The position numbers and the translations under genes are program-made. Positions 28,067 to 59,633 of a stretch of 64,000 nucleotides of DNA are shown piece by piece; within the stretch, counting starts at the first letter, position 1; each line of letters starts with the position of its first letter. Below the pieces are notes generated by a model. That model did not search any database. It had not been told where the DNA came from and saw nothing but the letters and a program-made list of their open reading frames with translations. The DNA lies in the NCBI RefSeq assembly GCF_027941835.1, contig NZ_CP116005.1, positions 3,487,501 through 3,551,500 of the forward strand, read 5' to 3'. The DNA is from Sphingosinicella microcystinivorans. Lineage in GTDB: Bacteria; Pseudomonadota; Alphaproteobacteria; Sphingomonadales; Sphingomonadaceae.

Positions 28067-28561
28067 ATGGCATTGAAATCGCTTGCACCGTTCGGCTCCT
28101 CCGGTTCGCCCGCGCGGGGCGCCGACCCCTTCGGCAACCTGCGCCACGACATCGAGCGCCTGTTCGAGGACGTGACGCGCGGCTGGCAGCTTCCCGCCGC
28201 CTTCCGCGGCGATGGCCTGCTCAATCCGCGCGTCGACATCGCCGAGACCGATCAGGGACTCGAGCTGACGGCGGAACTCCCCGGCATCGACGAGAAGGAC
28301 ATCGACCTCTCGCTCGACGACGACGTGCTGACGCTGAAGGCCGAGCACAAGGCGGAGAAGGAAGAGGAGGACAAGAAGAAGCGCTACCACCTCGTCGAGC
28401 GCTCGCACGGCACCTACCTGCGCCGCTTCCAGATTCCCTTCACGCCCGCCGCCGCGAAGGTGAGCGCGAGCTTCGACAAGGGTGTGCTGAAGGTGAGCGT
28501 GCCGCGCGCCGCCGCCGAGGATTCGAAGGCACGCAAGATCGCCATCGGCAAGGCCGCCTGA
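28067..28561 (+). CDS. Small heat shock protein, Hsp20/alpha-crystallin family
   Basis: An ATP-independent holdase chaperone of 164 aa. N-terminal flexible region with DPFGNLRHDIERLFEDV, alpha-crystallin domain from about 53 to 148 (PRVDIAETDQGLELTAELPGIDEKDIDLSL, HGTYLRRFQIP, FDKGVLKVSVP). Chosen start ATG 28067, with AAGGAAG just upstream; a longer in-frame start is not needed. A strong terminator follows at 28627-28660. No clear sigma32 promoter was seen upstream. Confidence 0.96.
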   Translation: MALKSLAPFGSSGSPARGADPFGNLRHDIERLFEDVTRGWQLPAAFRGDGLLNPRVDIAETDQGLELTAELPGIDEKDIDLSLDDDVLTLKAEHKAEKEEEDKKKRYHLVERSHGTYLRRFQIPFTPAAAKVSASFDKGVLKVSVPRAAAEDSKARKIAIGKAA

Positions 28562-28626
28562 CCCGCCGCAAAGGCTGCCGCATCGGCCGCTGCACGGGCC
28601 CGCGGCGCGTGCGGCCCCGCACAGCA

Positions 28627-28660
28627 GGGCGCCTCCCCACGGAGGCGCCCTTCTTTTTTT
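28627..28660 (+). terminator. Rho-independent terminator of hsp20
   Basis: A perfect 10-bp stem (GGGCGCCTCC / GGAGGCGCCC) with a 4-base loop, followed by TTCTTTTTTT. It lies 66 bp after the hsp20 stop. Confidence 0.95.
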
Positions 28661-28688
28661 CGCGCGGAGGGCTCAGGGAGATGCGAGT

Positions 28689-28702
28689 TTGACTCAGATC
28701 AA
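28689..28702. promoter_or_regulatory. FNR/FixK-like binding site
   Basis: TTGACTCAGATCAA matches TTGA-N6-TCAA and differs by one base from the FNR consensus TTGAT-N4-ATCAA. It is just after the hsp20 terminator. A transcript starting about 41 bp downstream of its centre (about 28737) would be the sRNA candidate. TACCAC at 28724 could be a weak -10. Confidence 0.6.
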
Positions 28703-28735
28703 AGTGGGAACGCGCCGAGGGCTTACCACCAGAAG

Positions 28736-28855
28736 GGAGGTTCCGCCGGCGACTATCGTCCCACCACCCTCCGCAAGGGGCCGGCGGATCCTCCCCGCAG
28801 TAAAACACCTCCTCCTCGGGGGACAGCGCGCTCCTGCTGTCCCCCAATTTCTTTC
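28736..28855 (+). ncRNA. Candidate trans-acting sRNA with CCUCC (anti-Shine-Dalgarno) motifs
   Basis: No convincing coding frame fits here. The stretch forms a long stem (28739-28750 GGTTCCGCCGGC with 28780-28791 GCCGGCGGATCC, one mismatch) whose loop exposes CCACCACCCTCC, then a single-stranded linker with CCTCCTCCTC (28808-28817), and ends in a terminator hairpin (28818-28845). CCUCC motifs in loops are typical of alphaproteobacterial sRNAs of the alpha-r14/CcsR type, which pair with ribosome sites. The 5' end is estimated from the FNR-like box. Identity with a named family is not claimed. Confidence 0.6.
28818..28854 (+). terminator. Terminator hairpin ending the sRNA candidate
   Basis: Perfect 10-bp stem GGGGGACAGC / GCTGTCCCCC with an 8-base loop, followed by AATTTCTTT. 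It lacks a T-run when read on the other strand, so it works for plus-strand transcripts. Confidence 0.8.
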
Positions 28856-28942
28856 CCCATCCTTTTGAAGACCTTGCGCCGCCGCCCGCGCCTCACCACG
28901 ATCCGCGGCGAACGGGACGGATGCGAACGGGGAGGACCGACC

Positions 28943-29394: not shown

Positions 29395-29652
29395 TCAGGC
29401 CGCTTGCGTGCGCGGCGTCAGACTCCGGTCTCCTCGGCCCGCCAGAAGGCCCGCGATCGAGATATCCTCGTCGAGGTCGTCCCAGTGAAGACCGCTGGGG
29501 CTGATCGTCACGCGGGCGCGCTCGGCCGGCGTCCCCCTGAAAAGGCGCGGGAACCAAGCGAGCGGGATGCCCAGCGTGCGCCCGTCGTCGAGTTCGACCC
29601 ACATCTGATCGTCATCGAAACGAACCGCTGTCGCCCTAGGCGAAATGCTCAT
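29395..29652 (-). CDS. DUF2442 protein
   Basis: An about 85-aa protein with the DUF2442 pattern: ATAVRFDDDQMWVELDDGRTLGIPLAWFPRL, then LHWDDLDEDISIAGLLAG. DUF2442 and DUF4160 genes frequently occur as a pair, thought to be toxin-antitoxin-like, with unproven function. ATG 29652 was chosen over the longer start at 29694; the stop of the preceding DUF4160 frame overlaps it. Confidence 0.85.
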   Translation of the reverse strand: MSISPRATAVRFDDDQMWVELDDGRTLGIPLAWFPRLFRGTPAERARVTISPSGLHWDDLDEDISIAGLLAGRGDRSLTPRTQAA

Positions 29653-29877
29653 GCCACGCCCTTTCGATCTCTTCGCGCCGATCAGCGATGACAAGGCTCA
29701 ACATGGCCAATGCGCGCGCGTTGAAGCCCGCATTGTACGCCACGTTGACATCGGATGAAGCCGGAACCTGGCGTCTGCACCGTCGCGCGTCACGTGGATG
29801 TGCACAGGTTCCCGCGGATTGCCTTCGTTCGAGAAGAAATGAAAGCGATAACCCTGATGCCGAAAGACGACGGGCAC
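29636..29877 (-). pseudogene. DUF4160 gene split by a frameshift
   Basis: From GTG 29877, 9 bp after nrdB, one frame reads VPVVFRHQGYRFHFFSNEG and EPVHIHVTRDGADARFRLH, exactly a DUF4160 N-terminus. The C-terminal half continues in another frame with DVNVAYNAGFNARALAMLS to the stop at 29636. The total is 242 bp, one base short of an 81-codon gene, so a 1-bp deletion around 29750-29760 breaks the gene. It may be a true pseudogene or a sequencing error; reads would settle it. Confidence 0.8.
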
Positions 29878-57464: not shown

Positions 57465-57609
57465 ACGTGCGCGCCGCAAGACCCTCTCCTTCTACCGACC
57501 GGGCAGCCCGCCGCTGCCCCCGGCGCATTCACCACCCCCTTGCCGGCCCGTCAAGCGCACGGCGAATTGACAGGCGCGGGCAAAGCCCCCAGAGTCCGCC
57601 GCAGCATTC

Positions 57610-59633
<2,024 letters not shown>

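Follow-up and report, generated by a model that had tools for sequence, protein, structure and literature searches.

A candidate FNR-linked small RNA with an open anti-Shine-Dalgarno linker in Sphingosinicella microcystinivorans

The window analysed here is a stretch of 64,000 nucleotides (G000:C1:3487501-3551500, GC 67%) from C1, the single 4.53-Mb contig of the genome under study (G000, the own genome below). Between hsp20 and a gene for a small membrane protein, on the + strand at about 28737-28856, there most likely lies a free-standing sRNA gene, as judged from the features collected in Table 1. It is preceded by a palindrome of the type TTTGAC-N4-RTCAAA, and 33 bases separate this palindrome, TTTGACTCAGATCAAA, from a conserved block that starts GAGGTTCCGCCGG. 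The membrane protein of 120 aa gave no Pfam match at E values up to 0.001. Elsewhere in the window we observed a TPP riboswitch (57606-57720, + strand; 62.3 bits against a gathering score of 54.3) and a DUF2442 protein (29398-29877, - strand) that adjoins a 59-aa frame; the latter looks like DUF4160, and we take the two to be a common pair of unknown function.

Table 1 Features at the sRNA locus, in window coordinates
Feature	Position	Strand	Basis or remark
hsp20 (PF00011)	28067..28561	+	Upstream neighbour in the own genome and G002 only
hsp20 terminator, 11-pair hairpin (28626-28651) and T-run	28626..28660	+	Terminator scan; separates hsp20 from the sRNA gene
FNR/FixK-type palindrome TTTGACTCAGATCAAA, 16-nt form	28688..28703	+	Centred at 28695.5; near-perfect
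FNR-type box, TTGACTCAGATCAA form	28689-28702	+	Read from the sequence
Candidate -10 element TACCAC	28724..28729	+	Putative; weak match to TATAAT; TAC at the same offset in 4/4 genomes
sRNA, about 120 nt	28737..28856	+	Predicted start; end from the terminator tail
Long stem	28737..28793	+	Pairs 28737-28740/28790-28793 and 28742-28750/28780-28788
Inner hairpin GAC-UAUC-GUC	28751-28760	+	Inside the long stem
Inner hairpin CCCU-CCGCA-AGGG	28767-28779	+	Inside the long stem
Open linker CCCGCAGTAAAACACCTCCTCCTC with CACCUCCUCCUC (anti-Shine-Dalgarno)	28794..28817	+	Folding ensemble
Intrinsic terminator, 11-pair hairpin (28818-28845) and tail AATTTCTTTCC	28818..28856	+	Terminator scan, fold
Promoter-like TTGCGC-N17-CACGAT	28874..28902	+	Hexamers and spacing identical in 4/4 genomes, spacer varies; inspection, post hoc
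Small membrane-protein gene, 120 aa	28943..29305	+	Downstream neighbour in 4/4 genomes

A reading of the letters and open reading frames of this DNA (the sequence-only reading) had proposed an unannotated sRNA gene at this place. Our analysis supports this proposal: an Rfam covariance search found no family that fits the RNA, with none at its gathering score and permissive matches, BjrC80 among them, that all fall well short of it, and an FNR-type site lies directly upstream. Within the 120-nt RNA of the own genome, ATG, GTG and TTG are absent, while the RNA of the other three genomes compared here (G001, G002 and G004) contains one TTG late in its sequence and that of G004 also one GTG. The only + strand frame of at least 40 aa over the element has 59 aa and begins at a TTG inside the box, ahead of the predicted RNA start; it is open in all four genomes, and its reading changes after a one-base indel in the linker that separates the own genome from the others. 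Three - strand frames cross the element and contain the same indel site. A protein-coding small ORF was rejected, since the own-genome RNA has no start codon and the reading is not kept past the indel.

The RNA (28732-28856) folds at -62.9 kcal/mol, compared with -42.1 +/- 3.6 kcal/mol for 200 shuffles, none of which folded as well (z -5.8); z values across the four genomes were -5.6, -4.3, -3.6 and -2.8. Together with the located parts, these values bear out the earlier description of a non-coding stretch of about 120 nt composed of a long stem, a linker and a terminator. Two details of that description needed adjustment. The terminator had been called perfect, which is too generous because the U-run of its tail is interrupted; the minimum free energy and centroid structures agree on the terminator fold. 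The loop motif CCACCACCCTCC is indeed present in the long stem, but it is partly paired, CCCU with AGGG, in the small inner hairpin. Accessibility differs among the CCUCC words, with mean unpaired probabilities of 0.42 in the loop and 0.21 in the 3' arm of the stem, against 0.95 and 0.98 for the two in the linker, where every base from 28795 to 28817 has a value of at least 0.84 in the own genome. Four CCTCC words in one RNA exceed the mean of 1.0 in 300 dinucleotide shuffles, a count reached in 2 of the 300; the G001 RNA has only two such words, which 16% of shuffles reach.

The box, the 48-nt spacing and the RNA are kept in four of six genus genomes (G000, G001, G002 and G004), which are all four of high completeness; a DNA search gave no match in G003 (83% complete) or in G098 (same species, 78% complete, 680 contigs). 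This 48-nt interval between the box and the first conserved base of the RNA does not differ among the four. Invariant columns make up 13/16 of the box (81%), 10/33 of the spacer (30%) and 97/120 of the RNA (81%), with 46/101 in the stretch from the RNA to the next ATG and 247/377 in the next coding sequence. Just 5' of the box only 6/82 columns are invariant, a figure that provides no neutral yardstick because the upstream neighbour varies between genomes (hsp20 or yggU). In the linker, the part outside the anti-Shine-Dalgarno motif, GCAGUAAAC, is invariant apart from one extra A in the own genome, while the motif itself is less perfect in G001 (CGCCUCCGCC), whose terminator has also lost one G and one C, one per arm. 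None of 31 base pairs covaries: no pair has changed on both sides, and three vary with a compatible change. Although 99% of cells pair, against 40-57% with a slid partner, 500 of 500 shuffles match the pairing and covariation values; the four sequences are too alike for covariation to test the structure.

Among the genomes searched, the sequence of the sRNA was found only in one genus. A DNA search of 98 genomes, the own one included, returned only the own genome and three genus genomes at E <1e-40; the other 16 genomes with a match had short ones at E 0.002 or worse, which were not individually inspected. A covariance model, R1, run on 298 family genomes (from a larger group) gave 38 match rows, of which four, all from the genus, are real at E <1e-27. 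None of the 26 weak rows inspected has an intact box (8 rows without a locus were left out); one of these weak matches (L123), with a box one mismatch off and at the wrong spacing, was rejected.

The position of the RNA behind hsp20 had raised the option of read-through stress expression, and the RNA could accordingly be a heat-shock read-through product or a fragment of the hsp20 3' UTR. A same-strand hsp20 does lie upstream in the own genome and in G002. However, hsp20 has its own terminator 5' of the sRNA, the FNR box sits between the two, and G001 and G004 keep the sRNA with yggU upstream instead and no hsp20 in the stretch examined at the locus. Because two of the four genomes have yggU rather than hsp20 upstream, we consider read-through highly improbable, and the sRNA appears from the sequence to be no part of hsp20. 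The gene yggU was identified by a PF02594 match in the window, and the G004 and G001 copies were read from translation. In G004 it ends 43 nt before the box; in G001 it runs as far as the box, within which its stop codon is found, and an apparent frameshift in the gene may reflect an assembly error or decay (L004). As a side observation, hsp20 is 93% identical to that of Sphingosinicella sp. isolate MCMED-G19. Outside the genus, the highest-ranking of the best 80 loci (out of 205) come from Alphaproteobacteria, including Afifella and Pleomorphomonas, with up to 64% identity; no further named sphingomonad is among these 80, a hint that hsp20 was gained horizontally.

The FNR-like box noticed earlier could be confirmed as a palindrome directly 5' of the RNA, kept in all four aligned genomes. 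In class II FNR promoters the box is centred at -41.5, and here its centre lies about 41.5 nt 5' of the first conserved RNA base. We infer the RNA start from this position together with the beginning of the conserved block, so that the 5' end most likely lies near 28737. Palindromes of the 16-nt form number two in the own genome, one in G001, three in G002 and two in G004, compared with 0, 1, 0 and 0 for the reversed pattern and an expectation, estimated by hand from base composition, of fewer than 0.1 per genome; the sole palindrome of G001 is the sRNA site. A second perfect 16-nt palindrome (L175, G000:C1:4522075; L133, G004:C1:1043594; L135, G002:C5:6750) is seemingly conserved in three genomes, where its neighbours are a UrcA-like gene and a small ORF (...HLRRADEHWRLARAAVSPEKRAMHSRIADAYIRIAEKF...), the latter a candidate for an FNR-linked small protein without a name.

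The own genome has 11 sites of the 14-nt form, compared with none for the reversed pattern and about 2.5 expected by hand from composition. Apart from the sRNA site itself (L172), the sites adjoin hemN-like and formate dehydrogenase subunit-like genes (L167), a ccoN-like gene (L168), dnr/narK-like genes (L169, L170), truncated haemoglobin-like (L171) and dps-like (L173) genes and the small ORF next to the UrcA-like gene (L175), while the neighbours of L165, L166 and L174 have no obvious meaning. The gene names were read from flanking translations, not from a family search, and as such the neighbours suit an FNR regulon. Two FNR-type boxes at G000:C1:2805916-2806022, between a Dnr-like regulator gene and a NarK-like transporter gene, suggest nitrogen-oxide use.

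HTH_Crp_2 proteins above 50 bits number five in the own genome, one each in G001 and G002 and three in G004. All four genomes share an FNR that carries CEDCVVRDRSLC close to its N terminus and another conserved Cys; its recognition helix contains ETVSR, and its best solved relative is an FNR-type regulator (E 4e-18). An FNR with the Cys cluster of an oxygen sensor is present in each of the four genomes, and in each the FNR site stands at the activating position with identical spacing, as counted from the predicted RNA start. FNR, Dnr and FixK-type regulators are not distinguishable from the box alone, and the signal for the same sRNA could be nitrate or nitric oxide, sensed by a regulator of the Dnr or FixK type that recognises this box; in keeping with this, Dnr-like proteins (by reading) occur in G000 and G004 (L153, L150), and the own genome has the two boxes between the Dnr-like and narK-like genes. 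In G001 and G002, however, the cysteine-bearing FNR is the sole HTH_Crp_2 protein above 50 bits, and both box and sRNA are kept there. Because these two genomes list no other such protein, FNR is favoured over Dnr, whose involvement we consider unlikely. As far as sequence can tell, the on-switch of the sRNA is very probably the oxygen sensor FNR.

A promoter scan of the sequence found no sigma-70 promoter, and the candidate -10 elements of the sRNA are weak (3-4/6 matches). Since the tail of the terminator is interrupted, some read-through is possible, and the membrane-protein gene begins 97-112 nt 3' of the stem in all four genomes. The RNA might accordingly be an FNR-driven leader of this gene, with the hairpin at 28818-28845 as an attenuator. 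This arrangement is called into question by the promoter-like TTGCGC-N17-CACGAT, which was noticed post hoc between the terminator and the gene in all four genomes and is a possible separate promoter of the downstream gene, and by the agreement of the two structure predictions on the terminator fold. The RNA is also better kept than the next coding sequence in pairs that include the own genome (83-91% against 72-74% identity), a weak argument against a leader because the values among the other three genomes are about equal or slightly higher for the RNA (88-99% against 87%). On balance, we judge a leader to be improbable and retain the free-standing sRNA.

The linker and the 16S tail have CACCUCCU in common, and by its sequence CACCUCCUCCUC may imitate part of the anti-Shine-Dalgarno tail of 16S rRNA; anti-Shine-Dalgarno action is plausible but unproven. 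The sequence-only reading had likened the RNA to sRNAs that block ribosome sites. In favour of this, the linker is open and conserved, but target searches came back empty. A search of four genomes for 17-mers complementary to the linker, with at most 2 mismatches, gave 38 rows, four of which are the sRNA itself, leaving 34 non-self rows against 28 for the reversed pattern. All 26 that were inspected (8 others were left out) lie within frames of at least 80 aa on either strand, and none lies at a start site. The start regions of 63 predicted genes in the window pair at -11.8 kcal/mol, compared with -10.7 kcal/mol for coding DNA (sd 3.8), with no clear signal. Apart from the extra A, the invariance of GCAGUAAAC, the part of the linker outside the anti-Shine-Dalgarno motif, suggests a more specific partner. 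According to the available part of PMC12559287, SisA uses short seeds on many mRNAs, a mode that would fit the empty searches without being shown by them.

The same empty searches could point to a sponge or decoy of another sRNA, of Hfq or of ribosomes rather than to a direct mRNA repressor; as CrfA of Caulobacter shows, an sRNA that was initially believed to target mRNAs can turn out to be a sponge (PMC12559287, accessible text). A sponge of CCUCC-type sRNAs would, however, be expected to have a G/A-rich loop, as in CrfA (same text), whereas the RNA described here lacks GGAGG and its exposed segments are C/U-rich, as in the regulator type. We therefore regard a sponge as quite improbable.

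Taken as a whole, we propose, with a probability of roughly 0.72, that the locus encodes an FNR-activated, trans-acting base-pairing sRNA of about 120 nt whose anti-Shine-Dalgarno linker acts on mRNAs. As oxygen falls, [4Fe-4S] FNR would bind the palindrome and activate transcription from about 28737 in class II geometry, with the box centre near -41.5, to yield an RNA that would end at 28845-28856. The open linker CACCUCCUCCUC, perhaps together with the hairpin loop, may pair with the ribosome-binding sites of mRNAs, and the translation of mRNAs unneeded at low oxygen would be lowered by this pairing. The gene, box, geometry, fold, terminator and presence of FNR are supported by sequence and conservation, whereas we infer activation itself, help from Hfq, repression and the identity of the targets. 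If the proposal is correct, the RNA is located downstream of one of the own genome's two best FNR sites and offers a direct, testable link from an oxygen sensor to translation control in sphingomonads. These are described as aerobic bacteria (PMC6472365, in the part available), and our literature searches found little on their adjustment to falling oxygen. It would also show the speed of sRNA turnover, with a promoter logic and design that are known and a sequence that is present in one genus only among the genomes searched.

To look beyond the genus, we searched the 298 family genomes for the box followed by 40-70 nt, CCTCC, 15-45 nt and a second CCTCC. Nine genomes contain this arrangement, compared with none for the reversed pattern; four belong to the genus and five do not. 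Two of the outside loci were rejected, L214 as it lies within a reading frame and L215 because a ccoN-like gene on the opposite strand accounts for it. L216 (G101) and L213 (G206) lie between genes and the weaker L212 (G179) at a gene end; each has a terminator-like hairpin and a possible -10 element near the right spacing (3/6, 4/6 and 4/6 matches, respectively). Their CCTCC words are no evidence because CCTCC was part of the query, and further promoters with a box in the own genome have similar -10 scores (1-4/6). L216 has one relative, in G040, which matches it at 78% over 54 bases and lacks a box, L213 has none in 97 other genomes, and Rfam gave no match at E values up to 1 for L213, L216 or L224. 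The last of these (G040:C1:1004092-1004144) shares the hairpin GCGGGCTATC..CTCCCCGCCCGC with L216, has no FNR box and may be a separate anti-Shine-Dalgarno RNA. A reading in which unrelated FNR-driven CCUCC sRNAs recur across sphingomonads, with different genera having separately coupled a class II FNR promoter to an anti-Shine-Dalgarno sRNA, is based on the three candidate loci and we hold it to be doubtful; if true, a low-oxygen brake on translation would be conserved as a function, not as a gene.

Among known RNA families, the nearest is BjrC80 (RF02354), with which the sRNA shares a GC-rich first hairpin and a terminator in a weak full-length match (28.1 bits, E 0.0014 for 401 bases). Membership was rejected at a score far below the gathering score of 80, and among 385 class genomes only one BjrC80 match exceeds the cut-off (130 bits), with no FNR box in the preceding 200 nt (best 2 mismatches). 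A sub-threshold BjrC80 match in another class member (L178, G640:C69:6281-6421) consists of a hairpin with CACCCTCC, a linker and a terminator whose tail is likewise AATTTCTTTCC. CcsR1-4 of Rhodobacter are conserved CCUCCUCCC-motif RNAs whose C/U-rich anti-Shine-Dalgarno motif resembles that of the sRNA. The CcsRs are cut from a transcript shared with ccaF1 under stress sigma factors (PMC8307010, available part), whereas the sRNA has its own FNR box, hsp20 or yggU as upstream neighbour and no small ccaF1-type gene, and membership in the CcsR or Cuckoo RNAs was rejected. The alphaR8 RNAs (MmgR, SisA-D; RF00519 suhB) likewise have an open CCUCC stretch by a hairpin and an intrinsic terminator; their core UUUCCUCCCU, as given in the accessible text of PMC12559287, is missing from the sRNA, and the only RF00519 match, at 28591-28665, lies outside the RNA and scores 17.1 bits against 41, so that this membership was rejected as well. 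Our literature searches, which had most subscription journals outside their reach, found no recognisable description of the sRNA, and the available parts of PMC5082802 and PMC6472365 contain nothing on it.

In its probable control the sRNA resembles FnrS of Escherichia coli, like which it would work without homology: the fnrS Rfam model gave no match at E values up to 10, the host class differs, and the anti-Shine-Dalgarno linker sets the sRNA described here apart. The role expected to be shared is the turning off of functions unneeded without oxygen, as described for FnrS in the available part of PMC8139620. The sequence-only reading had taken oxygen-linked control of such an RNA to be new, an impression that the literature on Alphaproteobacteria corrects, including that on Zymomonas, another sphingomonad. 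There, sRNAs respond to oxygen or ethanol (PMC6970203, in the part available). In Rhodobacter sphaeroides, FnrL binds the putative promoter regions of two sRNAs according to the accessible text of PMC4263372, and the FnrL-bound RSs0019 and RSs2461 (PMC4263372) and PcrZ (PMC8139620) resemble the sRNA described here in being tied to FnrL. PcrZ depends on PrrA, under whose direct control it is thought to stand, and perhaps only indirectly on FnrL (PMC8139620, available part). Because FNR-linked sRNAs exist in Alphaproteobacteria, this type of regulator is already known; what is new is the previously unnamed sRNA gene, which would join the known low-oxygen regulator RNAs of the FNR type.
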